The notes under the pieces were generated by a model. The model had not been told where the DNA came from. It searched no databases and saw only the letters and a program-made list of their open reading frames with translations. Source: Acidobacteriota bacterium (GTDB taxonomy: Bacteria > Acidobacteriota > Terriglobia > UBA7540). From it: a stretch of DNA of 64,000 bases. The position numbers and the translations under genes were made by a program. Below, one piece after another: positions 3,127-39,030 of the stretch (positions are counted from its first letter, which is position 1; each line of letters opens with the position of its first letter). The stretch spans positions 1 to 64,000 of the forward strand of contig SCRD01000023.1 in assembly GCA_004298155.1 (NCBI GenBank), written 5' to 3'.

Positions 3127-4011
3127 TCAAGCATGAATCGCGAGCACGGGGCAAGGCCCCAGTTGCAGCACTCGATGCGTGGTTGAGCCAAATAGCGCCA
3201 GGTCCAGGGCGTTCCGTCCGCGCACACCTACGATGATCAAATCGGTCTGGTTCTCCTCTGCAAGTTTGATGATTTCCTCGTACGGCTTGCCTGACCGGAC
3301 GAATGCCTTGATCTTGCAGCAACTCCGCTCTTTCTCAGGGACCTCCCCTTCCAGCAGATGAATAACGCGAGCTTTCTCCCCTTCAAATTGCACATCACTG
3401 GGTAAATGCTCCAGGACATGAAGAAGTGAGAGTTCGCCTCCAAATTCCGTCGCCAGTGAAAGCGCGTACTGCAAGGCCCGTTCGGAGCATTCCGAAAAAT
3501 CCGAGCAGAGCAGAATTCTGCGTAGATAGACAGGTTCTCCCCCGCTCTCGGGCCCTACAAAATCGTGAGCAGGCTGGCGAACTGCCAGCACTGGACAACC
3601 TGCCTTTCGCAGCACTTTCTCGGTCACCGAGCCCAGCGTCAGCCTCTGGAACCCGCGCCTGCCGTGGGTCCCCATCACGATCATGTCCACGGAGTTTTCA
3701 CGTGCAAAATCCAGAACCGACTCTGTTACGACTCCCTCCTCCACTGCCACTACTGCCTGCACCCCTCCTTCCGCGTGGGCCTTGGCAAATTCCCGTAGCT
3801 GCTCCTCGGCATACTCGCGCAGTTCCCCGTAGAATTCATTGACGGAATCAGGAATGGCATACTCCGGGTAACCAATCATCACCGGTCGCACAACGTGCAG
3901 CAGAAACAGTTCAGCCTTGTAATGGCGGGCGAGTGTAAGGGCGTATTGGTAAGCTCTCTCTGAAAAATCAGAAAAATCCGTGGGGCAAAGGATGCGTCCG
4001 ATTTTTAGCAC
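3127..4011 (-). CDS. Tandem universal stress protein (two Usp domains)
   Basis: A 294-aa cytoplasmic protein of two UspA domains in tandem (about 1-150 and 165-294). Both keep the ATP-binding pattern G-2x-G-9x-G-S: GTHGRRGFQRLTLGS in the first and GVRGRNALDLALFGS in the second. The start is GTG at 4011 with GGAGGT just upstream. It lies 105 bases downstream of a second tandem Usp gene in the same direction, so the two may be co-transcribed. Proteins of this type help cells survive starvation, low oxygen or oxidative stress. The specific trigger here is unknown. Confidence 0.9.
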   Translation of the reverse strand: MLKIGRILCPTDFSDFSERAYQYALTLARHYKAELFLLHVVRPVMIGYPEYAIPDSVNEFYGELREYAEEQLREFAKAHAEGGVQAVVAVEEGVVTESVLDFARENSVDMIVMGTHGRRGFQRLTLGSVTEKVLRKAGCPVLAVRQPAHDFVGPESGGEPVYLRRILLCSDFSECSERALQYALSLATEFGGELSLLHVLEHLPSDVQFEGEKARVIHLLEGEVPEKERSCCKIKAFVRSGKPYEEIIKLAEENQTDLIIVGVRGRNALDLALFGSTTHRVLQLGPCPVLAIHA

Positions 4012-4116
4012 GACTCACCTCCGGTTAAGGCCACAGATCCATCCTTCTTCGGTGGAAATGCCCCTCATCAGCCCGCTGTCATCAAATCCTTCTCTTGCAG
4101 CAACCCAGCAACTCAC

Positions 4117-5025
4117 TCAAGTCGTGGCACGAACCGTCAGCACCGGGCAATCGGCGCCCGCGACAACCGGGTACGCAACGTTGCTGATATGCTGTCTGGC
4201 CAGGGCCTCCGGGCTTCGAACACCCAGCACAATAAGGTCCGCTTTCCGCTCCTTTGCAATTCGCAGGATCGTCCCCGCCGGCTCACCGCTCTCAACAATG
4301 CACTCCGGCTCGCACCAGGCTGCCGTTTCCGAAGGAAATATCTCCTGCAGTTCGTCACGGAAGGCGCGTGCCAGAAGCCGCGCGCTGGTCTGGATGGCAG
4401 CAGGGACCACGTGCAGAACCGTCAGGTGCGATTCGTATTCCAGAGCAAAAGAGAGAGCAAACGGCGCGGCAGCAAAGGCATCTGCGGATAGGTCTGTGGG
4501 GTAGAGGATCTGCCGTGGTGCAATCTCTTCGGCCGGGCGATCCAGGGCATGGGGCCCCACTGTGAGGACCGGACACTCCACCGTCCGCCAGATTTCTTCT
4601 GCCACTGAACCCAACAGAAAACGCCGAAGGCCGCGGCGGCCGTGCGTTGCCAGGACCAGAAGATCAATCTGATGATCCCTGATCATCGAATTCACTTCCT
4701 CCGCAACTTCGCCATGACCCAGGAGAACCTCGTGTGGGACACCTCGGAGCTCATCGGATTCCGCCAGTGCCACCAGTCGCTTTGAACTGCCCCGGCGGAG
4801 GTCCTCGACGTAGGGCACGGCCTCCGGAGACACCATCGGATAAGGATGAGGCACCATCACGTGCGCCAGATAAACTCTGGATTCATACCGTCGGGCAAGA
4901 GCAACGGCATGCGGAAGGCTGCCCTGGGATGCCGGTGAAAAATCTGTTGTCCAGAGGATTTTCTTCAATTTGACAGGCTTCGCTGTGATGTGTTCGTGGA
5001 TGGGGACCGGTTTGGTTTTTTCCAT
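4117..5025 (-). CDS. Tandem universal stress protein with degenerate ATP motifs
   Basis: A 302-aa protein with two Usp domains. The N-terminal domain has ATHGRRGLRRFLLGS, in which the first glycine of the G-2x-G-9x-G-S motif is alanine. The C-terminal domain has GVRSPEALARQHISN, which has lost most of the nucleotide-binding glycines. It may therefore bind ATP poorly, or act as a regulatory partner of the intact Usp downstream. The ATG at 5025 has a strong AAAGGAGG ribosome-binding site. A perfect 16-bp CRP/FNR-type palindrome lies 58 bases upstream of the start, pointing to control by a Crp/Fnr-family regulator. Confidence 0.88.
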   Translation of the reverse strand: MEKTKPVPIHEHITAKPVKLKKILWTTDFSPASQGSLPHAVALARRYESRVYLAHVMVPHPYPMVSPEAVPYVEDLRRGSSKRLVALAESDELRGVPHEVLLGHGEVAEEVNSMIRDHQIDLLVLATHGRRGLRRFLLGSVAEEIWRTVECPVLTVGPHALDRPAEEIAPRQILYPTDLSADAFAAAPFALSFALEYESHLTVLHVVPAAIQTSARLLARAFRDELQEIFPSETAAWCEPECIVESGEPAGTILRIAKERKADLIVLGVRSPEALARQHISNVAYPVVAGADCPVLTVRATT

Positions 5026-5352
5026 AGGTCCTCCTTTAGGCTCACTTCTGATTTCACGCTAGCAATCGCAAGGCGAATAAGCTGTGACCTCGGTCACAAG
5101 CCAAGGTCTGGGATCGGTTTCAGCACTATTCCGAGAAGCGCATGCAGCAGATAAGTTCCAGTGCCTGCGCAAGGAACATAGGCGCTGGCCAGGTTGCTTG
5201 CGGACAGTAGAGGAAGATGGCCAACACTGTCTGCCTCACGTGTAGTTCCCATCGAACTCGGTCGATTGGGACAGAAGCAGTCCGGAACAAATCCTGCCAG
5301 CCTTACACATCGGCTTCGCCACAGCAAACAGGATATCAGAATCACCATGAAA
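5026..5352. other. Intergenic region between the Usp gene and the 609-aa gene
   Basis: Apart from the palindrome at 5083-5098 and the ribosome-binding site of the Usp gene, no coding region is supported. Short reading frames here lack ribosome-binding sites and family resemblance. No terminator with a T-run was recognised downstream of the 609-aa gene, which ends at 5353 on the minus strand. Confidence 0.4.
5083..5098 (-). promoter_or_regulatory. CRP/FNR-family operator upstream of the usp gene
   Basis: The sequence TGTGACCTCGGTCACA is a perfect inverted repeat with seven-base arms around TC. It matches the E. coli CRP consensus TGTGA-N6-TCACA at every fixed position. Its centre is about 65 bases upstream of the usp start codon, a normal place for an activator. 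Which Crp/Fnr-family protein binds it cannot be told from this window. No clear -10/-35 pair was found next to it. Confidence 0.7.
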
Positions 5353-7182
5353 TTATTTCCCGTTGGTGGACAATGTGAATAAAATCTCCTGTTGATGCGG
5401 GCGGATGAATCCATGCTGCGACTTCAAGTCAAGCGGGATCGTAAGCCTGCCGACTGCGTGTTCCAGCGTTTTTTCCGGGGCATTCGCGTACGGGTTGTAG
5501 GGATATATGGGCCATTGCAGGCGTGCTGCGGGATCAACTTTAAGCGTCCAGTTGCCCTGCCGGATCCAGCCGCCAAGATCATCCGGCCCGAGGTCAACCC
5601 GGTCACTTCCGAGTGTGAACTTCTTTCCTGCACCCGTTTCAAGCACCTGGCCGGACTTCAGCACCAGTTGCAGGTTCAGTTCAGCTTCGTCCGGAGGCGT
5701 GCCCTTGCCCGTAATCTCGAACCGAAGAGTGACGGAATTGGCGGCTGGCGACGGAACGTAAAGGTCAACAAAGAACTTGTTGTAAGCAAGCGAAAGCCTG
5801 TCTGAGCCGTTGCCCATTTGCAGACGGCTGCTCACAGGCATCGCGTTCGTGTTGCCGCCAAATCGTTCCATGAACGTTGCCAGCTCCGGCTGCCGTTTTG
5901 AATTAGCGCCAGAGATAATCAGGCCCAGCTTCTGGTTAAAGACGCTCACGTTGGATTGCCGATCGATGTAGAACTGATTGTCTATAGCGGGAGGTTCGAC
6001 GATGCCGGAGAAGCCCACTTCCCAAGGGCCGGTCTTGCGGATTCCGGCTGGGATGCTCAGCCGATGGGAAAAGCTTTCCATGTCTTGCGGGATGGGCGCT
6101 GTGGGGCCGGCGTGGTAGTAAAGGGCATCTTGTGAAAGGCGCCCGAGTTCGTCCATCGTCAGGTGCCCCGGTCTGAAGAAGTCGACCAGGAATTCATCGT
6201 AACGACGTCCGTCGGGAAAATTGGAGAACCCAAACTGTCCCCAGGCCGGGACAGTCCAATAACGATTCCGGTTATTGACCACTTCAACCGGCGTCCCGTC
6301 CAGATAGGTAAAGTACTTGTGAAAGTCAGTCGAGCGGCGCAATGCCTTTAAGGCCGCGGGATCTCGGCTGTATTCCCAATAGAGCGCAACCTGTGTCAGT
6401 GTAATGTAATCGTACCCGGTGGTCGGCCCCATGCGGCTAAATTCACCCCAGTAACCATCGGGAGTCTGCTCCACAGTCGAATAACGGTGCAGGATCTTAT
6501 TGCCAAGGTCACGCCAGTCAGGTTTACCGAAAACCCGGCCGGAAAGCATCAGCAGGCTGGCCCATTGCGCATAGTGGTTGGGCGACGTGCCGATATACGG
6601 CGTGTTGTACCAGGGGAAGTCCACCATCTTTAAGGCTGAATCATAAAATGGCGCCGCGTTCTCAAGGATAGCTTTCTTCCACCGTGCGCTACGCTCGGCG
6701 CCCAGTTCCGGTTGAAGCAGGCGGTAGGCTTCCAGCCACATGTAGGTGTCCCAATCACTATCCAGCCGCGGGGTAAAAATCCCTTTTTCATTCTGGCCGG
6801 CAAAGTAGTCGCCAAGCTTAATGGCCTCAGCCAGCATTTTCGGATCGTGAAAGTGCTGGTTGGCAGGATCGCGTTTAGAGTAAAGGACCGCAGGCGCAAG
6901 GATGGAATACGGGAGATGCTTCCACCCGGACTCGTCTTCGAGTGATGGCAAGTCCGCTCCAGGGTGCTGGCTCATATGTTCTTGAACTTGCGCAACGCCA
7001 GAAACCATCAGACGAAAATATTGACCGGGCAATAAGGGAGACGACTTGGCAAACAGGTTCGCGCCCAGCATCAGGCAGAACAACATTGCACCCGCAACCC
7101 GGATGGGAATTTGCGACTCAGCTTTACAAACTCCCACACTGTTTGTAGTGAAACCGTCCATCAGCCTGTGCAAGGCCTTCAT
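5353..7182 (-). CDS. Secreted protein of unknown function, possibly alpha-toroid fold
   Basis: A 609-aa protein with a likely signal peptide (residues about 20-46, hydrophobic, ending near LFAKSS). The first two thirds are rich in aromatic-containing helical repeats (for example GYDYITLTQVALYWEYSRDP), reminiscent of the (alpha/alpha)6 barrels of polysaccharide lyases and unsaturated glucuronyl hydrolases. The last third looks beta-rich (SVTLRFEITGKG). No catalytic motif was recognised, so the lyase or hydrolase idea is only an inference. The ATG at 7182 has GGGAGGT upstream. It follows the glycerol facilitator gene by 61 bases on the same strand. Confidence 0.75.
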   Translation of the reverse strand: MKALHRLMDGFTTNSVGVCKAESQIPIRVAGAMLFCLMLGANLFAKSSPLLPGQYFRLMVSGVAQVQEHMSQHPGADLPSLEDESGWKHLPYSILAPAVLYSKRDPANQHFHDPKMLAEAIKLGDYFAGQNEKGIFTPRLDSDWDTYMWLEAYRLLQPELGAERSARWKKAILENAAPFYDSALKMVDFPWYNTPYIGTSPNHYAQWASLLMLSGRVFGKPDWRDLGNKILHRYSTVEQTPDGYWGEFSRMGPTTGYDYITLTQVALYWEYSRDPAALKALRRSTDFHKYFTYLDGTPVEVVNNRNRYWTVPAWGQFGFSNFPDGRRYDEFLVDFFRPGHLTMDELGRLSQDALYYHAGPTAPIPQDMESFSHRLSIPAGIRKTGPWEVGFSGIVEPPAIDNQFYIDRQSNVSVFNQKLGLIISGANSKRQPELATFMERFGGNTNAMPVSSRLQMGNGSDRLSLAYNKFFVDLYVPSPAANSVTLRFEITGKGTPPDEAELNLQLVLKSGQVLETGAGKKFTLGSDRVDLGPDDLGGWIRQGNWTLKVDPAARLQWPIYPYNPYANAPEKTLEHAVGRLTIPLDLKSQHGFIRPHQQEILFTLSTNGK

Positions 7183-7243
7183 CAGAACCTCCCTTTCTCA
7201 ATACGGGTTGGAGGCAATACCACGATCGTCTCCGATTCCTTGT

Positions 7244-8107
7244 TCAAGACGCCTCCGGATGGCGGTCGGCAGGAACCTGCTCCGGAGCCCGGATCAGGAA
7301 GGGGCGCACAAGGCCATCGTACACAAGCCCGCCTGCAATTCCTCCTACTAAAGGCGCCAGAATGTAGATCCACCACTCATTTCCTCGTGGCCCAGGAAAA
7401 GCAATTGATCCATATCCCACCAGAAAGCCGAAAAGCCTGGGGCCGAAGTCCCTTGCGGGATTCACCGCGTCCATCGTCAACGGAGCGCCGATGCCCACAA
7501 TGGCCGCCACCGTCAGGCCGATGAACATAGCGGCCATGTTGCTACCGGGAGCCGCCGTATTGCGCGAATCAATCAGCGCCAGGATTGCAACTAGCAGGAA
7601 CACGGTCAGGACGGCTTCCACCAGGAATGCTGTGCCACCCGTTACCTTTGCAAAGTCCGCTGGCGTTACCCCAACGATGCCAGGGTTCGGATAGAAGCAA
7701 CTGAAGATCATCATCAGTTTCTGGCTTCCGGGCTGCCCGACCCTCACACCCAGCTTTTGTGCAGTGGGCGTCCAAAAACCGTACCAGCAGTAAAAAAGGA
7801 CAAGCGATGCCGTGAACGCACCGATAGTCTGGGACAGCACATAGGGCACAATCTTCCTGCCGGGAAACTTGCGGAAAATCGCAAAGCAGGCGGTCACAGC
7901 CGGATTAAGGTGCGCTCCTGAAACGCCGCCTGAAATGTAGACCGCCAACAGGACAGCGAAGCCCCACAGCAGGGCGACTCCAGTCAAATCGTAAGCATTT
8001 GTAAATACCGCTACGGCGACGGCGCCGTCTCCGATCAGGATCAGAACAAAGGTGCCGACAAATTCTCCCAGGCATTCTCCCATCAGGGATCCTTGTAATC
8101 TCTTCAT
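7244..8107 (-). CDS. glpF: Glycerol uptake facilitator (MIP family)
   Basis: A 287-aa inner-membrane channel of the major intrinsic protein family with about six hydrophobic segments. Both half-helix motifs are present: HLNPAVT near residue 65 and NPARDFGPRLFG near residue 210. The Asp after the second NPAR is the hallmark of glycerol-conducting aquaglyceroporins, so passive glycerol uptake is the likely role. No glycerol kinase or glycerol-3-phosphate dehydrogenase gene is in the window, so the pathway link cannot be shown here. The start is ATG at 8107. Length is normal for GlpF. Confidence 0.88.
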   Translation of the reverse strand: MKRLQGSLMGECLGEFVGTFVLILIGDGAVAVAVFTNAYDLTGVALLWGFAVLLAVYISGGVSGAHLNPAVTACFAIFRKFPGRKIVPYVLSQTIGAFTASLVLFYCWYGFWTPTAQKLGVRVGQPGSQKLMMIFSCFYPNPGIVGVTPADFAKVTGGTAFLVEAVLTVFLLVAILALIDSRNTAAPGSNMAAMFIGLTVAAIVGIGAPLTMDAVNPARDFGPRLFGFLVGYGSIAFPGPRGNEWWIYILAPLVGGIAGGLVYDGLVRPFLIRAPEQVPADRHPEAS

Positions 8108-28507: not shown

Positions 28508-29974
28508 TTGGCATTCAGTTGGATCGATCTGGTTGTTGTCATCGTTTATCTGGCAGTGGTCACGCTGCTGGGTGCGCGTTTCGGCAAGCGCCAAAAGACC
28601 CTGCACGACTACTTCCTGGGCGGCCGCCAGCTTCCCTGGTGGGCCATAGCCCTTTCCGTCGTTTCCGCTGAGACCAGTATTCTCACCATCATCAGCACTC
28701 CGGGAATCGCCTATACCGGCGACATGGGCTTTCTCCAGCTTGTCTTTGGATATCTGGTGGCGCGCGTCGTTGTCAGCTTTATCCTCATCCCAAAATACTT
28801 TGCCGGCGAACTCTTCACCGCCTACCAGTTAATCGAGCGCCGTTTTGGGCGCGGGCTTAAGGTCTTCACGGCCGGCCTGTTCCTGGGCAGCCGCGCGCTG
28901 GCGGAAGGGGTGAGGGTTTTTGCGATCTCAATCGTAATCGAAGTGATTTTCAAGACCGGTGTCCTGACCGCCGTCCTGATCATCACCGCACTCACGCTGT
29001 TCTATACGTTTGAAGGCGGGCTTACGGCAGTTATCTGGACTGACGTCACGCAGCTTACCATTTACATCACGGGGACTGTCATCGCCTTGTTGCTGGCCGT
29101 CAGGGCTATTCCGGGCGGCTGGGCGGAAGTGGCGCACCTCGCCGCCGTTTCGGGAGGCAAGTTCACCATCTTCCATTTCCAATTCAACTGGCATGACCCA
29201 TACCTGTTCTGGTCCGGCCTGATCGGCGGCACGTTTCTCACCAGCGCCAGCCACGGGACCGATCAATTGATTGTGCAGCGGCTGCTGGCAGCAAAAAACA
29301 AACGGCAGAGCCAGGGAGCGCTGCTGTCCAGCGGGCTGGTGATTCTGTTCCAGTTTGCGCTGTTCCTGGTGATGGGCGTGGTCCTTTTTGCTTTCTATCA
29401 TTTTCATCCGCCGGCCCATCCTTTCACGCGTCCGGATAAAATCTATCCCACATTCGTGGTCACACAGTTGCCCACAGGGTTGGCGGGATTGCTGACGGCA
29501 GCCATCATCGCGGCGGCCATGGCAAACCTGAGCGCCGCGTTCAATTCTCTGGCTTCCAGCTCGGTGGTGGATTTTTACCGCCCTTTTTTCCGCCCGGACG
29601 CGGACCAGAAGCATTACGTGCGGGCCTCACGAGTCCTGACGCTTTTCTGGGGGGGAGTCCTGATTCTGATCGCGATCATCTCCCAGTATCTGCATGAGGG
29701 CGTACTGGTGCTGGCGTTGACGATCGCTTCGGTTCCTTACGGGGCCATGCTGGGAATCTTTTTACTGGGTGTTCTGACCAGGCGGGCGACCTCGCGAGGC
29801 GCGCTGGTGGGGGCAGCATTGGGTTTAACCGTTCTCATCCTGATTTTGATTGGAAAAGCGTTCGGGGTCATCAACATCGCATGGACCTGGTACGTGGTGA
29901 TTGGGACTCTGACCACCTTTTTCGGAGGATGGATCGCCAGCGTGGCGCTTCCCGGCCACAACATAAGGCAATAA
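28508..29974 (+). CDS. Sodium:solute symporter family transporter
   Basis: A 488-aa inner-membrane transporter of the SSS (SLC5) family with about 13 helices, driving uptake of a small solute with Na+. Family blocks are visible: the first helix WIDLVVVIVYLAVV, then DYFLGGRQLPWWAIALSVVS, and SHGTDQLIVQRLLAAKNKRQ. Length is typical. The start appears to be TTG 28508 with GCGAGG upstream. The substrate cannot be read from sequence. Because GH18 and muramic acid genes lie nearby on the same chromosome arm, an amino sugar is a possible cargo, but this is a guess. Confidence 0.87.
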   Translation: MAFSWIDLVVVIVYLAVVTLLGARFGKRQKTLHDYFLGGRQLPWWAIALSVVSAETSILTIISTPGIAYTGDMGFLQLVFGYLVARVVVSFILIPKYFAGELFTAYQLIERRFGRGLKVFTAGLFLGSRALAEGVRVFAISIVIEVIFKTGVLTAVLIITALTLFYTFEGGLTAVIWTDVTQLTIYITGTVIALLLAVRAIPGGWAEVAHLAAVSGGKFTIFHFQFNWHDPYLFWSGLIGGTFLTSASHGTDQLIVQRLLAAKNKRQSQGALLSSGLVILFQFALFLVMGVVLFAFYHFHPPAHPFTRPDKIYPTFVVTQLPTGLAGLLTAAIIAAAMANLSAAFNSLASSSVVDFYRPFFRPDADQKHYVRASRVLTLFWGGVLILIAIISQYLHEGVLVLALTIASVPYGAMLGIFLLGVLTRRATSRGALVGAALGLTVLILILIGKAFGVINIAWTWYVVIGTLTTFFGGWIASVALPGHNIRQ

Positions 29975-30012
29975 AGATCCTGGAGGCCGAATTTCGCATT
30001 GACGAACGGCGA

Positions 30013-31206
30013 ATGCTGCGATTACTCTCATCGAAACACTTAAAAACGAGGGACCTGTTGACAAGATACCTAAACCGCGCACCGCTGATGATTGCATCCC
30101 TGCTTCTGGCGCTCCTCCCGGTAAAATTTCTTACCGCCCCCGGCGGCCCCGACCAGACCAACCGGTCCGCGCCGGAGAGCCTCGCGCGCGGCACTGAAAA
30201 AGCCCAGAAGGACCCTGATCTGACCCTGAAATCGATGCGCGAGCGGGTGATGGCAGCAAGGCCGCTCGCCATGTATTACACTTCCGGCGGCGTGTCCGGA
30301 CTTGATTCCGTCGAGCAGCACGCTTCAGACATCACCATTCTGGCGCCCCAGTGCTATTGGCTGGACCAGAACGGAAACGTCCAGGGAGGCGTTCCTGCGG
30401 CCACGATGGACGCGGCCAGGCAGTCAGGTTTACCGGTCATGGCCCTGCTTTATAACGAGGATTTCAGCCGGCGGGTGGCTTCAGCGGTGCTGCACAACCA
30501 GGACCTGCAGAAGGCCATCATCAAAAATCTTTCAGAGATCGCCAGGAAGGAAGATTTGCTGGGCTTCCAGCTCGACCTTGAAAACATTGACCCCGGCGAT
30601 ATCAACCTTTATACCCGATTCGTGCAAGATGCCGCAAACGAGTTTCACCACGAAGGGCGGATGTTGAGCGTCGCCGTCGTTCCCCGCTTCCTGAATTCCG
30701 TTCCCAGCCAATGGGCAGCCGCTTATGACTACTCGGCGCTTGCCCGGCGGGTGGATTTCCTGACCCTGATGGCCTATGACAACTCCGGCAGGCTTGGCCA
30801 GCCTGGTCCCATCGCCGGCTACAATTGGGTCAGGAAGGCGCTGGAATATGCCCGCAGCCGTGTGCCCACGGACAAACTCCTGCTGGGCATTGCCCTCTAT
30901 GGCCGCGAGTGGAGTGATAACGGGCACGGCCTCCAGGCCCGCACCATGGCCTTCCCCGAAACCCAGGCCCTGCTCAACCGGCTCTCGTTGACTCCGCGAT
31001 GGGATGAAAGCCAGCGTTCGCCCTGGTTCGAGTATCGCAGCAGCGGGACTGTCAACCAGTTGTGGTACGAAAACGCCAGGAGCATTCAGGAAAAGCTGAG
31101 GCTCCTCGATGAATACCGGCTGCGGGGGTTCGCCGCGTGGCGCCTGGGGATGGAAGATCCGCGCATCTGGTCCATGGTTACAGCGGTGAGCCAAAGCCAG
31201 CCATAG
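30013..31206 (+). CDS. Exported glycoside hydrolase family 18 protein
   Basis: About 397 aa from ATG 30013; the frame continues upstream over the symporter gene, which is unlikely to be real. An N-terminal hydrophobic segment (LMIASLLLALLPVKFL) acts as a signal or anchor. The TIM-barrel GH18 active-site strand reads GFQLDLENI, giving the D-x-E pair with the catalytic Glu. MAYDNSG is the usual substrate-positioning strand. It is closest in style to YaaH/SafA-type GH18 enzymes acting on peptidoglycan or chitin oligomers. It starts 39 bases after the symporter stop, so the two may be co-transcribed. Confidence 0.8.
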   Translation: MLRLLSSKHLKTRDLLTRYLNRAPLMIASLLLALLPVKFLTAPGGPDQTNRSAPESLARGTEKAQKDPDLTLKSMRERVMAARPLAMYYTSGGVSGLDSVEQHASDITILAPQCYWLDQNGNVQGGVPAATMDAARQSGLPVMALLYNEDFSRRVASAVLHNQDLQKAIIKNLSEIARKEDLLGFQLDLENIDPGDINLYTRFVQDAANEFHHEGRMLSVAVVPRFLNSVPSQWAAAYDYSALARRVDFLTLMAYDNSGRLGQPGPIAGYNWVRKALEYARSRVPTDKLLLGIALYGREWSDNGHGLQARTMAFPETQALLNRLSLTPRWDESQRSPWFEYRSSGTVNQLWYENARSIQEKLRLLDEYRLRGFAAWRLGMEDPRIWSMVTAVSQSQP

Positions 31207-31986: not shown

Positions 31987-32520
31987 TTACTTCTTTTGCA
32001 GGGCCGGCAGAAGATACTTGGTGATCAGCATGTCGTAATCCTGCCGGGCCTCGTCCGTAATGGGCGCAGTGACCAGCGGACCGTCTGCTGACGCTTTCAG
32101 GTAAAGATCGCCGGTCCCACCTAATTCCCCCGGATCGATCTTCTCATACTTGGTGTCGTCCGATTCTCCAAAATCGTAAACCTGCTTGGCATCGTATGTT
32201 TTCATCTGGTCCGGTGTGAGCTGGCCAACGCTGCGCACGTAAATACGCAACCGCCCAAAGAACCGGGCTTTGTCATAGTCAACGCAAATGACACGCTGGA
32301 GCTGGCTCGATGGGGCCTGGGGATCGGGATAAAGATTCGCGAGCAGATAATAATCCGTGAGCTTGCCACCGTAAGAGTCATTCAACAGTTGATAGAGCTT
32401 GTAGGTCGGATCGTCCGGGCTGACGGATTCGTGCCTCTTTTTTGCCCAGGCAGAAGGCATCGCAATCGCAAGCAAACTCATGGCTGCCAGGATGGCAACC
32501 ATATACTTCTTCTTTCTCAC
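31987..32520 (-). CDS. Small exported hypothetical protein
   Basis: A 177-aa protein of unknown function. The first 26 residues form a clear signal peptide ending AMPSAWA, and the mature part is acidic with many Tyr and Asp residues. No motif or family was recognised. The GTG at 32520 has a strong GGGAGGG. It is convergent with the PLD-like gene (41 bases between the stops) and stands alone. Confidence 0.65.
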   Translation of the reverse strand: MRKKKYMVAILAAMSLLAIAMPSAWAKKRHESVSPDDPTYKLYQLLNDSYGGKLTDYYLLANLYPDPQAPSSQLQRVICVDYDKARFFGRLRIYVRSVGQLTPDQMKTYDAKQVYDFGESDDTKYEKIDPGELGGTGDLYLKASADGPLVTAPITDEARQDYDMLITKYLLPALQKK

Positions 32521-32832: not shown

Positions 32833-35235
32833 TTAATAGGCCAGGTATTTTGCGCGCATTTTTCGGAAATTCATCAAGGGCTCTTGCCACAGGTATTCAA
32901 TCCGGGTTGGGTCGAAGTTGTTCCGGATATCATCCAGCACCCAGCGCGACCCGATCAGCGGAAGCGTTTTATCCAATTCAAAGTTTTTGGGATAAAGCTG
33001 GTGGAGGGCTGAAGCGAGTTCGATGCCAAGTTCCGGGGCATTGAGCGCCTGGCGGTCCACCAGATGGATCTGAACGCCGTGGCACACCTGGCCGGCAAAC
33101 CTGCTGCTTTGCGGCGTGAAGTCCACAGGAAGAAAACGCACACCTTGAATGTCGCGGGAGTTCAGGTAAACCGCCAGCCACTTTCCATCGATCCAGGGCG
33201 CGCCCAGCAGCTCAAAGGGCGTATCAGTCCCTCGGCCGACGCTGATGTTGGCTCCCTCGACCATCCCGACTCCTGGATAAAGGATCGTTTCGGTCAGCGA
33301 ACGCAGGTTGGGCGAAGGGTTCCTCCATTTCAATCCTGTTTCGTCGAACCAGTCGGTCCGCTCCCAACCCTGCAGCTTGATGACGTGCAGGTTGGCGCCC
33401 AGGTGCTCTTCGCCATTGAACATTTCCGCCAGTTCGCCCATGGTCATGCCGTAGCGAACGGGCAGCGCGTAGTAGGCGACGAACGATCGCAGGTCCGAAT
33501 CAAGGATGGGCCCTCCCACAATAGACCCTCCAATCGGGTTGGGGCGGTCCAGAACATAAAAAGCCATGTGGTTCCGCACGGCCTCTTCCATGGCATAAGC
33601 CATGGTGGTGATGTAAGTGTAAAAGCGCACTCCGGCATCCTGAATGTCAAACACCAGGGCGTCCAGTCCCTGGAGCATCCGGGCAGTGGGCCGCTCTGTC
33701 TCGCCATAAAGGCTGTAGACCTGAAGCCCGGTGACCGGCTCTTTGGTGGAGGCCACGGAACTGTCCTCTTTGCCCCAGAGGCCGTGCTCCGGGCTGAAGA
33801 TGGCCTTGAGTTCGACGCCGGGCGCGTGGTTGAGCAGATCAATGGTCCGACGTCCTTCGGAATCCACGCCCGTCTCGTTGGTGATAAGGCCAACGCGCAG
33901 GCCCTTCAAAGGCGCAAAGTTTTCACTTTCCAGAACGTCAATCCCCGTCTTTACGTTCCCGTTCCGCAGCCCGCTCACCCTGTAACTCCTCATCAGCTCG
34001 TAGTAACCCGTGAGCGACTTGTGCGAGTCCAGGACCTGCTGGTCGGACACCGGACCGAGCGCAGCCGCGATGGCGGTGTCAATCATCGAGCGGAGAGCAA
34101 CCACATCGCCCGCCCCGTTCGGGTGGACGCGGTTGGCGAGGAAAACCACGTAGGTGCGCGTTACGGGATCAATCCACAGCGAGGGCCCTGTAAAACCGGT
34201 GTGGCCAAATGATCCCACCGGGAAAAGCTGGCCGCGATTAGAAGTAAAAGGCGAAGCAATATCCCAGCCAAGCCCGCGCACCGCCATCTTGTCAACCGGC
34301 GATTGTGGCGTTGTCATCTTTTCCACGGCCAGCCGGTCCAGGATTTGCACGCCGTGAAATGTTCCGCCGTTCAGCAACATCTGGCAGAAAATTGAAAGGT
34401 CGCGGGCATCAGAGAATAGCCCGGCATGGCCCGCCACGCCGTCCATCCGCTGGGCCGTGGGATCGTGGACCTCGCCCCACAGGATGGGGCCGGTACTTCC
34501 GTCAACGTGCTGAGTGGGAGCGATGCGAAAGCGCAGAGTTGCGGGGGGAGCAAACATGGTGCTGGTCATCCCCAGGAGCTTGAAAATGTGCTGTTCGCAA
34601 TAGACGTTGAGCGGCTCGCCGGAAATGCGATGGACCAGTTCGCCCAGGGTCTCAAAATTGATATCGCTGTAAATGAATCGCGTCCCGGGCGGCACGATGG
34701 GAGCCGTGTCGATGATCATCTTCATCGCCGTGTCGTAACCGGACCAGTCGTAGCTGAGGTCCAGATCGGGCGGCATGCCGGAATAGTGGGTCATCAGTTC
34801 GCGGACCGTGATGTCCTGCTTGCCGTTGGCAGCAAACTCGGGCCAGTATTCAGAAACTCGATCGTCCAAGCGTATCTTGCCTTCCTGGAAAAGCTGCATG
34901 ATGGCGGTAGTGGTGGCCACAACCTTGGTGCAGGATGCCATGTCAAATATGGTGTCCAGAGACATCGGCAATTTCCGCGGGACCAGTCGGCGATAGCCAA
35001 TGGCGCGCTGATAAACCATCCTGCCGTCATGACCCACCAGAATAACGGCCCCGGGGGTTTTGCCCTCCTGCATGGCCTTTTCGACTACCCCGGGCAACTG
35101 CCGGAGCCGGGCTGCAATGGGCCCCGACCCTGCTGCCGAGACACGCCTTCGCGCCTGCCCCGCCGTGACCGTTGGAGCAGCAACCGCCACAAGAATGAAA
35201 AGGAAAAAGGTTTTAAAAACGCGAAGCATCTGCAT
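32833..35235 (-). CDS. AmiE-NamZ fusion: serine amidase plus exo-beta-N-acetylmuramidase
   Basis: About 800 aa, exported (signal peptide LRVFKTFFLFILVAVAAPTV). Residues about 40-390 are a beta-lactamase-fold serine hydrolase with the SxxK motif SCTK, YSD, and a C-terminal HTGFTGPSLW, like the MurNAc-L-Ala amidase AmiE. Residues about 410-800 are DUF1343, now known as NamZ (GH171), with FDIQDAGVRFYTYI, DRPNPIGG and GRGTDTPFELLG. In B. subtilis AmiE and NamZ are separate proteins of one MurNAc-recovery cluster. Here they are one chain, divergent from murQ-nagA. ATG 35235 was chosen because it precedes the signal peptide. Confidence 0.85.
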   Translation of the reverse strand: MQMLRVFKTFFLFILVAVAAPTVTAGQARRRVSAAGSGPIAARLRQLPGVVEKAMQEGKTPGAVILVGHDGRMVYQRAIGYRRLVPRKLPMSLDTIFDMASCTKVVATTTAIMQLFQEGKIRLDDRVSEYWPEFAANGKQDITVRELMTHYSGMPPDLDLSYDWSGYDTAMKMIIDTAPIVPPGTRFIYSDINFETLGELVHRISGEPLNVYCEQHIFKLLGMTSTMFAPPATLRFRIAPTQHVDGSTGPILWGEVHDPTAQRMDGVAGHAGLFSDARDLSIFCQMLLNGGTFHGVQILDRLAVEKMTTPQSPVDKMAVRGLGWDIASPFTSNRGQLFPVGSFGHTGFTGPSLWIDPVTRTYVVFLANRVHPNGAGDVVALRSMIDTAIAAALGPVSDQQVLDSHKSLTGYYELMRSYRVSGLRNGNVKTGIDVLESENFAPLKGLRVGLITNETGVDSEGRRTIDLLNHAPGVELKAIFSPEHGLWGKEDSSVASTKEPVTGLQVYSLYGETERPTARMLQGLDALVFDIQDAGVRFYTYITTMAYAMEEAVRNHMAFYVLDRPNPIGGSIVGGPILDSDLRSFVAYYALPVRYGMTMGELAEMFNGEEHLGANLHVIKLQGWERTDWFDETGLKWRNPSPNLRSLTETILYPGVGMVEGANISVGRGTDTPFELLGAPWIDGKWLAVYLNSRDIQGVRFLPVDFTPQSSRFAGQVCHGVQIHLVDRQALNAPELGIELASALHQLYPKNFELDKTLPLIGSRWVLDDIRNNFDPTRIEYLWQEPLMNFRKMRAKYLAY

Positions 35236-35590
35236 TCCGGACCCCCGGCTAATATATTTATGCGAGTAGAGCATTTTGCTATAGACTCAGGGGTTCGTGT
35301 CAATGAAAGATTCACTCCGTGGCGGTTGCACAATTTGAGAGACGAGGCATGCACCGAATTTTGCCAGACGAGCGCGGCTGTCGCGGAATCGCCCACATGA
35401 AAACGTAAGGAGTTGGTACACTGATACTTGGCCGCGCGATGACGCTCCAGGCCATTACGGATATGGCTGCAGGAGCACGAAGCGGGCGTCATGATTTGCT
35501 TTCACCTTCTCGGGTCCAAGTAGAACCCGAAGGTGGTTTGTTATTCTGAAAGTTAAGTTTCGCATTCGATGTTCCTCCAGATCGCCTGAA
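35236..35590. other. Divergent control region between amiE-namZ and murQ
   Basis: A 355-base gap between divergent genes of one pathway. A bulged hairpin of eleven pairs lies at 35503-35535 (CACCTT-ct-CGGGT against ACCCG-AAGGTG). No coding region is supported. A MurR-type regulator gene was not found in the window. Confidence 0.45.
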
Positions 35591-36547
35591 ATGAAACGTC
35601 AGACAATAGAACGCGTCACGGAAAGGAAGAACCCCGCAGCAGATTCTCTCGACACCCGGAAGACACACGACATTCTTGCCTTAATGAATCGTGAAGACCA
35701 GAAGGTTGCCGTGGCGGTCCGCAAGACATTGCCGCAAATCACCCGCGCAGTTGACCTGGCCGCCAACGCCATGGCAAAGGGAGGGCGGTTGGTTTACCTG
35801 GGCGCGGGAACCAGCGGGCGGCTAGGCGTCCTGGATGCTTCCGAGTGCCCGCCGACGTTCGGTACGGACAAGGTCGTGGCGGTTCTGGCTGGCGGCCCAA
35901 AGGCAATGTTTAAGGCCGGCGAGGGCATTGAAGACAATCGCGCTAGCGCGCGCAGGGACCTTGAACGCATCGGCCTGGGCAGGACGGACATTCTGGTAGG
36001 GATTGCGGCGAGCGGGCGCACCCCGTACACGCTCGAAGGATTGCGGTATGCAAAGCAGAGAGGCGCTTTAACCATTGGCGTAACGGCCAATCCTGATTCG
36101 CCCATGCGCGGGCTTGTGGACGTTGAAATTGCCGTCAACGTCGGTCCCGAGATCATTGCAGGCTCAACCCGGCTGAAAGCAGGGACGGCCCAGAAACTCG
36201 TCCTGAACATGCTCTCCACGGCCACAATGGTGAAGCTGGGACGCGTCTTTTCCGGATTAATGGTCCACATGGAGATGAAGAATGCCAAGCTCCGGGAGCG
36301 CGGGCGGTCCATCCTGGCCAGGGCCACGGGAGTCGGTCCTGCAACGGCTGCCCGGGCGATGAAGGCTGCCGGCTCAAACCTTCCCGCAGCCCTGCTGATG
36401 ATCTGGAAGAATGTCTCAAGGAGCGAAGCCCTCGATATTCTCAAGCAACAACCCAATACGGCCCTTGCGCTTCGTAAGGCGCGCGCAGAATATCTTAAAG
36501 AACACGCACGCGCCGGCAGTCGAAAGCGCTCCAGGGGGAAAGCATGA
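35591..36547 (+). CDS. murQ: N-acetylmuramic acid 6-phosphate etherase
   Basis: A 318-aa cytoplasmic SIS-domain enzyme that cleaves the lactyl ether of MurNAc-6-phosphate, giving GlcNAc-6-phosphate and D-lactate. The signature GAGTSGRLGVLDASECPPTF and the second SIS block GIAASGRTPYTLEGL are clear. A C-terminal helical domain follows. The next gene, nagA, overlaps its stop by four bases (ATGA) and uses its product. The upstream neighbour is the divergent AmiE-NamZ fusion, which would supply MurNAc from muropeptides. A MurNAc kinase or phosphotransferase, needed in between, is not in the window. Confidence 0.95.
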   Translation: MKRQTIERVTERKNPAADSLDTRKTHDILALMNREDQKVAVAVRKTLPQITRAVDLAANAMAKGGRLVYLGAGTSGRLGVLDASECPPTFGTDKVVAVLAGGPKAMFKAGEGIEDNRASARRDLERIGLGRTDILVGIAASGRTPYTLEGLRYAKQRGALTIGVTANPDSPMRGLVDVEIAVNVGPEIIAGSTRLKAGTAQKLVLNMLSTATMVKLGRVFSGLMVHMEMKNAKLRERGRSILARATGVGPATAARAMKAAGSNLPAALLMIWKNVSRSEALDILKQQPNTALALRKARAEYLKEHARAGSRKRSRGKA

Positions 36548-37731
36548 AAGCCGTTAAAGCCATTATTGCCGGAACTATTTATACTCCGGCGGAAGAAATC
36601 CGCAACGGCGTAATTCTTGTCGAAGGGCACCGGATTGCCAAGGTTGGCCCGCGTGAGCAGGTAAAGATTCCGCAGGGTGCGGCGGTTATCGATTACCAGG
36701 ACCGCACCGTCGTTCCTGGATTTATCGACATTCACATCCATGGCGCCGTCGGTTACGACCTGATGGAAGCCACTCCCGAAGCCGTTGCAGCCGTGGGAAA
36801 GTACCTGGCGCGGCACGGAACAACCTCCTACGCAGCCACTACAGTCGCCGCCAGTCTCGACAGGACATTGAACGCTGCCAAGGGCCTTAGTGAAATCATT
36901 CGGGCCTCCAACAGTTCCCACGTGGTTTCTGACAAGGTGGTCGGGGCCCAGCCGGTGTGCATCCATCTCGAGGGGCCTTTCCTGAACATTAAGCGCCGCG
37001 GCGCGCACCCGGCATCGCAAATCCAGAAGCCTTCCACCGAATTGCTGTCGAAATTTCTCGACGCCGCAGGCGGCGCCGTGCGCCTTCTCACTCTGGCGCC
37101 GGAACTCGAAGGCGCGCTCGCGGTCCTCGAGTTTGCGCGAAGCAAGGGCCTGAAAGTCGGCATCGGACACTCCAACGCCACTTATGAGGAGGCGAAGAGC
37201 GCCATCGATGCCGGGGCCACTCATGCGGTCCATTGTTTTAACGCCATGCGTCCTTTCATGCATCGTGACTCCGGAATCATCGGCGCGGTCCTCACCGATG
37301 ACCGCGTCAGCGCCGAGCTGATCTGCGACGGCATCCACGTGGAACCCACCGCCATCCGCCTGCTGGTGCGATCAAAAGGAGTTGAACGGCTGATCCTGGT
37401 GAGCGACAGCCTGAGTGGAGCCGGCATGCCCGACGGCAACTACCGCCTGGGGAACTTTACGGTGCACGTGGCCGGCGGAGTGTGCCGGACGGTCGATGGC
37501 AACCTGGCAGGCAGCACCATTATGCTTGATGCCGCCTTGCGTAATCTCGCAGCCTTTACGGGGCTCAGCTACACGCAATGCCTGCCCTCCGTAACCAGCA
37601 ATCCGGCCAGGATTCTTGGACTCGAAAATCAGAAAGGTGTCATTGCTCCCAGGGCCGATGCCGATCTGGCAGTCCTCGACCAGCAGTTTTATGTGACTCA
37701 AACGTACGTTCGAGGCCGACCGGTTCTCTAG
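36544..37731 (+). CDS. nagA: N-acetylglucosamine-6-phosphate deacetylase
   Basis: A 395-aa metal-dependent amidohydrolase turning GlcNAc-6-phosphate into glucosamine-6-phosphate and acetate. The metal-site motifs are seen in order: IDIHIHGAVGYDLMEA, the Glu in HLEGPFLN, GIGHSNATYEEA, and HAVHCFNAMRPF, followed by the catalytic Asp in LVSDSLSGAG. It overlaps murQ by four bases and so is translationally coupled to it. Together they feed muramic acid carbon into amino sugar metabolism. Length is normal. Confidence 0.95.
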   Translation: MKAVKAIIAGTIYTPAEEIRNGVILVEGHRIAKVGPREQVKIPQGAAVIDYQDRTVVPGFIDIHIHGAVGYDLMEATPEAVAAVGKYLARHGTTSYAATTVAASLDRTLNAAKGLSEIIRASNSSHVVSDKVVGAQPVCIHLEGPFLNIKRRGAHPASQIQKPSTELLSKFLDAAGGAVRLLTLAPELEGALAVLEFARSKGLKVGIGHSNATYEEAKSAIDAGATHAVHCFNAMRPFMHRDSGIIGAVLTDDRVSAELICDGIHVEPTAIRLLVRSKGVERLILVSDSLSGAGMPDGNYRLGNFTVHVAGGVCRTVDGNLAGSTIMLDAALRNLAAFTGLSYTQCLPSVTSNPARILGLENQKGVIAPRADADLAVLDQQFYVTQTYVRGRPVL

Positions 37732-37761: not shown

Positions 37762-39030
37762 ATGGATAAGTTTCTGATTACCGGAGGCCGTCCGCTCGAC
37801 GGGCAGGTGACCATCAGCGGCGCAAAAAACGCCGCCCTCCCCGCCCTGGCTGCGGCGCTTTTGACGGAAGACCGGATTGTCCTCCGGAATGTGCCACGAG
37901 TTCGCGACATCGGGACCATGCGCAGCCTGATGGACGAACTGGGCGTCGATTCGTCCGTTACACACGAGGAATGCGGCAATCGGGTCGAAATCGAGGCGCG
38001 CCGCCTGTTGAATCCGATGGCGCCTTACGAGCTTGTCAAACAGATGCGAGCCTCCATTCTGGTTCTGGGGCCGTTAGTGGCCCGCTTTGGACACGCGCGC
38101 GTCTCTTTGCCGGGAGGATGCGCCATTGGAGCGCGCCCCGTCAATCTTCACATCCGGGGTCTGGAAAAGATGGGCGCGTCAATCCAGATTGAGCACGGTT
38201 ACATCGAAGCCCGTGCTGACCGGCTGCGGGGCGCTGTCTTCACTTTTGACGTGGTCTCCGTCACCGGGACCGAAAACCTGATGATGGCCGCCACGCTCGG
38301 AGACGGTGAAACGGTGCTTGAAAACGCCGCAAAGGAACCGGAGGTTGTTAACCTTGCCGAATTATTGATCAAGATGGGAGCCAGGATCGAAGGTGCGGGA
38401 AACGATGAGATCCGTATTCGAGGAGTCAGCCGGTTGCACGGCACGGAACATGAGATCATCCCTGACCGGATCGAGGCCGGGACATTCCTGGTTGCGGCTG
38501 CGATCACACATGGGCATCTCCTGCTTGACCGCGTCAATCCTTCCCATCTTACAGCCGTTATCAATAAACTTTCTGAAGCGGGCGCTCAAATTCACGAACC
38601 CTGCCCGGGAAAAATCGAGATCACGGCAGACCACTCTATTCAGGCGGCTGACATGACCACTCAGGAATATCCCGGCTTTGCTACGGACATGCAGGCACAA
38701 TACATGGCCCTGATGACCCAGGCCCAGGGATCTTCCCTGATTACCGAAACAATCTTCGAAAACCGCTATCTCCACGCCCTGGAACTGATGCGGATGGGGG
38801 CCGACATCGCAGTGAACGGGCGGCGAGCGGTGGTTCGAGGCAAGACCGCCCTGAGCGGAGCCAAGGTGCAGGCATCCGACCTGCGTGCAAGCGCCTCCCT
38901 GGTGCTGGCGGGGCTCGCGGCACAGGGTGAAACCCTTATCGATCGCGTCTATCACATTGATCGAGGTTATGAGCGGATCGAGGAAAAACTAATCCACCTC
39001 GGGGCAAGAATCGACCGGGTTTTTGAATAA
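37762..39030 (+). CDS. murA: UDP-N-acetylglucosamine 1-carboxyvinyltransferase
   Basis: A 422-aa enzyme that transfers enolpyruvate from PEP to UDP-GlcNAc, the first committed step of peptidoglycan synthesis. It is a two-domain inside-out barrel with the N-terminus ITGGRPLDGQVTISGAKNAA. The active-site cysteine is Cys120 in LPGGCAIGARPVNLH, so the protein should be fosfomycin-sensitive by this criterion. It begins 30 bases after nagA and is probably co-transcribed with murQ-nagA. This places recycling and new synthesis of muramic acid precursors together. Confidence 0.96.
   Translation: MDKFLITGGRPLDGQVTISGAKNAALPALAAALLTEDRIVLRNVPRVRDIGTMRSLMDELGVDSSVTHEECGNRVEIEARRLLNPMAPYELVKQMRASILVLGPLVARFGHARVSLPGGCAIGARPVNLHIRGLEKMGASIQIEHGYIEARADRLRGAVFTFDVVSVTGTENLMMAATLGDGETVLENAAKEPEVVNLAELLIKMGARIEGAGNDEIRIRGVSRLHGTEHEIIPDRIEAGTFLVAAAITHGHLLLDRVNPSHLTAVINKLSEAGAQIHEPCPGKIEITADHSIQAADMTTQEYPGFATDMQAQYMALMTQAQGSSLITETIFENRYLHALELMRMGADIAVNGRRAVVRGKTALSGAKVQASDLRASASLVLAGLAAQGETLIDRVYHIDRGYERIEEKLIHLGARIDRVFE

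Follow-up and report, generated by a model that had tools for sequence, protein, structure and literature searches.

A locus of an acidobacterium (Acidobacteriota bacterium; Terriglobia, UBA7540; assembly GCA_004298155.1) raises the question of how N-acetylmuramic acid (MurNAc) released outside the cytoplasm would enter the cell and be phosphorylated there. The window, that is, the whole stretch of 64,000 nucleotides that was analysed (contig SCRD01000023.1, positions 1 to 64,000), contains a gene for an exported protein in which a hydrolase domain of the S12 family is fused to NamZ, divergent from murQ and nagA. An earlier interpretation made without database searches (the sequence-only reading) had proposed muropeptide scavenging from this arrangement and had left uptake and phosphorylation as open questions. 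This was too pessimistic for uptake, as a sodium:solute symporter (SSF) gene lies in the window and symporters of the same type are fused to S12-NamZ in relatives, and too narrow for phosphorylation, as the genome encodes AnmK and two MurK/NagK-like kinases elsewhere. We consider it probable that the locus serves to scavenge or salvage muropeptide sugars in the periplasm, with fused exo-enzymes and a route of the MurT-MurK-MurQ type. To our knowledge, the tri-fusions, in which this enzyme pair is tied to a sodium symporter, are new, as are the operons in relatives that make the pathway complete; neither was found in the literature searched.

The S12-NamZ fusion is a single open reading frame of 813 amino acids (aa) on the reverse strand (32833–35274), without an internal stop. 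An N-terminal export signal, read by eye at residues ~14–41, is followed by the S12 domain of the beta-lactamase/PBP4B/AmiE-like type (residues 63–390, 34105–35088; PF00144, E = 2.7e-75), a flexible linker (residues 419–436, 33967–34020), the NamZ N-terminal domain (residues 461–660, 33295–33894; NamZ_N, PF07075, E = 3.5e-82) and the NamZ C-terminal domain (residues 664–813, 32836–33285; NamZ_C, PF20732, E = 9.6e-47). All three Pfam domains scored far above the curated cut-offs, with NamZ_N at 275 bits against 26.9 and NamZ_C at 160 bits against 25, and they stand in the expected order. On the forward strand, the fusion faces murQ (MurNAc 6-phosphate etherase, 35591–36547; TIGR00274, 340.4 bits against a cut-off of 302), nagA (N-acetylglucosamine (GlcNAc)-6-phosphate deacetylase, 36544–37731; TIGR00221, 329.9 against 225.65) and murA (37762–39030; TIGR01072, 573 against 393), each of which passed its NCBIfam cut-off. 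Both parts of the earlier description, one exported chain with AmiE-like and NamZ halves and its divergence from these three genes, were thereby confirmed. Translational coupling of murQ and nagA had also been proposed; the ATGA at 36544–36547, a 4-base overlap common to the murQ stop and the nagA start, was read in the DNA, and the coupling was checked by this overlap only. Given the fusion of NamZ to an S12 domain resembling AmiE and PBP4B, and its position beside murQ-nagA-murA, the use of muropeptide sugars still appears to be the simplest reading.

The catalytic motifs were compared across an alignment of 51 full-length fusions from several families. The S12 residues S114 and K117 (SxxK), Y202-S203-D204, and H358 and G360 (within H358-T-G360) were present without exception, a count that excludes the conservative positions inside the motifs. 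The NamZ half carries PEHG (495–498), DIQD (543–546), DRPNP (576–580) and GRGT (680–683), and P495, E496, G498, Q545, D546, D576, S678, G680, R681 and G682 were invariant in 51/51 fusions, which we give as conserved motifs and not as established catalytic residues. Conserved NamZ residues, the loss of which the sequence-only reading had named as an argument against itself, are therefore retained. PEHG, DIQD and DRPNP are also aligned in the solved DUF1343 protein 4k05, and the fold of the NamZ half matches that structure (TMt 0.89, 39% identity); from its family, we infer this half to be an exo-beta-N-acetylmuramidase. The AlphaFold2 model of the fusion consists of two well-folded halves (mean predicted local distance difference test score (pLDDT) 85, predicted template modelling score (pTM) 0.54) joined by a disordered linker (419–436, pLDDT < 50), with an uncertain relative placement of the halves. 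As the linker is disordered and the pTM is 0.54, their mutual placement is not predicted, and a direct handover from the S12 to the NamZ domain is unproven.

The symporter gene (28508–29974, (+); PF00474, 163 bits), a candidate importer of MurNAc or GlcNAc, lies 3 kb from the fusion and beside a GH18 glycosidase gene, and both had been overlooked by the sequence-only reading as they are just outside the span that it described. In 14 genomes from five genera of another family, a symporter of this first type is fused in frame with the enzyme pair in the order SSF-S12-NamZ, and one genome of a different family has a second symporter type joined to S12-NamZ in that order (L059, 1051–5187). The open frames of these tri-fusions have ~1260–1700 aa (one is located at 6381–10580 of L057), and several of the first type are encoded in assemblies that comprise just a few contigs. 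The symporter tree separated the two types with high support and nested each fusion in its own type, indicating that the joining of symporter and enzymes happened at least twice. The window symporter fell into the first clade (34 rows, support 100/97) with the symporter halves of the tri-fusions, while the six other symporter matches of its genome lay outside. Six tri-fusions have nagA directly upstream, and several face a divergent BadF kinase gene. At the tri-fusion junctions that were read, the last symporter helix is followed by a stretch of positive charge and a hydrophobic segment, with a signal-peptidase-like site after them at several junctions; the old signal peptide has probably come to anchor the chain in the membrane, or else it is still removed.

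An in-frame union of symporter and amidase-muramidase pair in two lineages is strong genetic evidence for a MurNAc carrier, and makes the question of this carrier directly testable at the level of one gene. We tentatively propose, with somewhat less than even confidence, that transporter, amidase and exo-muramidase form one membrane protein in several acidobacterial genera: the former signal peptide would now be a transmembrane segment that keeps both enzymes on the periplasmic side, close to the opening of the sodium symporter, so that the sugar would be cut and imported by one chain. The window locus would be the unfused form of this arrangement, and its symporter would belong to an undescribed lineage of MurNAc transporters. 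Covalent linkage of a transporter with the hydrolases supplying its substrate would in itself be unusual, if true. Long frames in four other genomes (1092–1273 aa) and in a fifth (997 aa) were not counted as tri-fusions, as they are without an in-frame symporter, and a 1390-aa frame in a sixth comprised S12-NamZ only, with the symporter gene upstream in a separate frame. Separately, a Gemmatimonadota locus (L116, 2055–7833) contains two frames with the NagZ motif and a 1408-aa symporter frame (3610–7833), maybe another transporter fusion.

Whether the window symporter itself carries MurNAc has to be weighed against several observations that speak for caution. Of the 12 loci of the family in which murQ is divergent from the fusion, 8 have a symporter gene of ~600 aa between the two. 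This second type is absent from the window genome (best match 33% identity), so that the case for the first type is built on the tri-fusions of another family and on position. The clade that unites the window symporter with those of the tri-fusions had a support of 88/92, against 100/97 for the wider clade, and the likeness to the MurNAc importer MurT of Tannerella is one of superfamily and of linkage to MurNAc genes, taken from its description. The low identity of the best match also led us to reject the idea that the second type is merely encoded elsewhere in the genome. Nor do we class the second type as a whole as a MurNAc family, as a contig scan seeded with symporter peptides mostly gave symporters without MurNAc genes nearby. 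The product of 28508–29974 could instead transport another substrate, for instance sialic acid, GlcNAc or a different carboxylated sugar, and lie near the fusion only by chance in this genome; its distance of 3 kb and its GH18 neighbour allow this, its nearest solved structure is 5nv9 (“putative sodium:solute symporter”), a sialic acid symporter, and an amino acid permease adjoins it in some relatives. We regard this as rather improbable, since the protein shares a clade with the symporter halves of 14 tri-fusions, and since its type recurs in the genus and, in four families including that of these tri-fusions, stays close to the fusion or to NamZ. The symporter at 28508–29974 is thus likely the uptake gene for MurNAc.

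For the S12 half, the best NCBIfam model was PBP4B, with 192 bits under a cut-off of 385; the domain is related to PBP4B and is not a PBP4B equivalog. In a tree of 54 S12 domains, a clade of 39 rows (support 88/71) united the NamZ-fused and NagZ(GH3)-fused S12 domains with Escherichia coli YfeW; AmpC, AmpH and further S12 proteins from the same class fell outside it. YfeW and the fusions have the motifs GV(A/S)GHAGLF and GHTG in common, neither of which turned up in AmpC or AmpH. In E. coli, yfeW follows murQ-murP, and in Bacillus subtilis amiE lies in the murQ cluster, indicating that this S12 subfamily accompanies murQ in several phyla. By analogy, we infer that the S12 half is an AmiE-type amidase. 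S12 enzymes switch substrate easily, among esterases, DD-peptidases and beta-lactamases, which tells against this assignment, as do the weak placement of YfeW in the tree (80/42), the presence of esterases among the nearest solved folds (EstG and esterase EH7, besides AmpC-type folds), and the choice of reference: the nearest characterised S12 protein compared was E. coli PBP4B/YfeW, and the likeness to AmiE rests on descriptions.

The same sub-threshold PBP4B score and esterase and AmpC folds would suit a DD-carboxypeptidase, an endopeptidase or an esterase, which would prepare the substrate for NamZ by trimming its peptide or taking off a substituent. We consider such an enzyme unlikely, as S12 domains of this subfamily also occur in fusions with NagZ-type GH3 beside murQ and as free proteins beside NamZ in Gemmatimonadota and archaeal clusters; exo-glycosidases acting on a bare sugar are their recurrent partners, which fits an amidase best. 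The fusions of NagZ-type GH3 with a sister-clade S12 domain were observed at L068 (7218–10265), L069 (7717–10674), L177 (3723–6662) and L108 (3618–6671), and the first three adjoin murQ.

The S12-NamZ fusion is not special to this locus, and a search for the same fusion and its neighbours found it to be widespread. Full-length relatives with 60–87% identity and open frames of ~740–880 aa occur in ~30 genomes of the same family, most of its genomes carrying the fusion, which indicates that the fused frame is no assembly accident. It is also present in other families (~45–55% identity) and other classes of Acidobacteriota. NamZ was detected in 343/399 genomes of the class; among the matches listed, fused frames of ~740–1000 aa predominate in some families and stand-alone NamZ of ~390–520 aa in others. 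murQ is divergent from the fusion in 12 loci of the family, including the window. In two genomes from another class of the phylum (L227, 122–8335; L220, 6441–15934), a BadF kinase, murQ, a symporter, a GH3 enzyme with the NagZ motif KHFPGHGD and S12-NamZ are encoded in this order and the same direction, as a single operon; a further locus has the order BadF-symporter-murQ-nagA, and two Gemmatimonadota loci contain separate NamZ and S12 genes, two symporters and BadF.

Outside Acidobacteriota, plasmids of Burkholderia and Cupriavidus encode fusions with 41–43% identity over 91–95% of the length. These adjoin a polysaccharide deacetylase and a DUF4015 glycosidase, and on the two plasmids read murQ is absent within 6 kb of the fusion. 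The S12-DUF1343 architecture was tabulated once, for YP_439122.1, in a 2008 survey of serine proteases (PMC2605481); this protein and those of Burkholderia and Cupriavidus have the same domain order as the window fusion, but the plasmid neighbours differ. The two-domain fusion is thus a known architecture in a known pathway.

The locus itself is without MurR and MurP. Genes for the remaining steps were sought in the rest of the genome (completeness 97.6%, so that absences are probable and not certain). Following the earlier suggestion to look for AnmK or MurK outside the window, we found AnmK and two BadF kinases of the MurK/NagK-like type, with 8zo3, an “N-acetylmuramic acid/N-acetylglucosamine kinase”, as their best relative in the PDB. 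The genome also has ten GH20 matches and a NagB relative below the cut-off. AmpG gave no match in the genome at E = 1e-3, and the same search was positive in E. coli and four other controls; the import of intact anhydromuropeptides by AmpG is therefore unlikely. Two features fit the proposed module less well: the kinases are encoded outside the locus, and no NagZ-type GH3 was found in the genome. Its four GH3 genes reached at most 24.6 bits with the NagZ model (cut-off 207), are all xylosidase/glucosidase-like and do not contain KHFPGHGD, and on the score and the missing motif none was accepted as NagZ. One of the two kinase genes (L062, 8305–10079) lies directly after a NanE-like gene (ManNAc-6-P epimerase, by eye), and this copy may serve another amino sugar.

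Judging from gene content, the exported S12-NamZ protein would act at the non-reducing end of peptidoglycan fragments, where the S12 domain would strip the stem peptide from the terminal MurNAc and the NamZ domain would then free this MurNAc. Fragments starting with MurNAc may be supplied by the GH18 enzyme next to the symporter (29881–31206, (+); PF00704; translation probably starts downstream of 29881), which is peptidoglycan-glucosaminidase-like and of the YaaH/SleL (cortical-lytic enzyme) type: its best PDB match is 4s3k YaaH (2e-41), and the third is the cortical-lytic enzyme 4s3j (9e-35). With NagZ absent, the GH20 enzymes may fill its place. The symporter would import free MurNAc, maybe also GlcNAc, for phosphorylation by a BadF-type MurNAc/GlcNAc kinase, after which MurQ would open the phosphorylated sugar to GlcNAc-6-P for deacetylation by NagA. 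The adjacent MurA fits a return of the sugar to wall synthesis.

This position of murA next to nagA also suits a recycling of the cell's own wall, in which the enzyme would process peptidoglycan turnover fragments in the periplasm and the symporter would prevent the loss of sugar. AnmK is at hand for the anhydro-MurNAc that lytic transglycosylases of the cell itself would release, and without AmpG own turnover would need a periplasmic route too. We give this explanation a little less than an even chance: the YaaH/SleL-type GH18 and the GH20 matches, about ten in number, suggest external polymers, and the Burkholderiales plasmid fusions have a polysaccharide deacetylase and a DUF4015 glycosidase for neighbours and no murQ close by.

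In previous studies of B. subtilis, the cluster order was given as murQ-murR-murP-amiE-nagZ-ybbC (PMC5061867), with PF00144 in amiE (PMC10653849). The same chemical steps are represented in the window by an S12 amidase-family domain, NamZ (YbbC) and MurQ. However, amiE, nagZ and namZ are separate in B. subtilis and MurP is a phosphotransferase system (PTS) transporter, whereas the window has S12-NamZ as one chain and a symporter instead, without MurR or MurP in the locus and without a NagZ-type GH3 in the genome. In E. coli murQ-murP-yfeW, the same S12 subfamily (PBP4B) adjoins murQ with GVxGHAGLF and GHTG shared, but YfeW is single-domain and uptake is by MurP. Tannerella MurT, which imports MurNAc, belongs to the sodium symporter superfamily and is encoded in an operon with murK and murQ (PMC5790795). 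With MurT-MurK-MurQ plus NamZ1/NamZ2, Tannerella forsythia likewise combines such an importer with a MurNAc kinase and MurQ (PMC5790795, PMC10465942), but in our case the kinase is outside the locus, and these two papers do not describe S12-NamZ or symporter-S12-NamZ fusions for Tannerella. The NagZ-S12 fusions likewise join a sister-clade S12 domain to an exo-hexosaminidase, but they carry a NagZ-motif GH3 in place of NamZ and are absent from the window genome. Soil acidobacteria, abundant and poorly studied, would gain a concrete route for cell wall sugars without a PTS, AmpG or NagZ.

Directly downstream of the fusion, a small exported protein is encoded at 31987–32520 (−), to which no function was assigned and which had no match in Pfam or NCBIfam. 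It is a conserved neighbour of the fusion in the loci of seven relatives and is a possible partner of it. S12-NamZ sets also occur on several haloarchaeal plasmids. A plasmid of Halorussus halophilus (NZ_CP044525.1, 210865–218856) encodes AnmK, an S12 hydrolase, NamZ and NagZ close together, along with a 412-aa protein without a Pfam match. An archaeon has no murein of its own, and H. halophilus is apparently equipped to use the bacterial cell wall.

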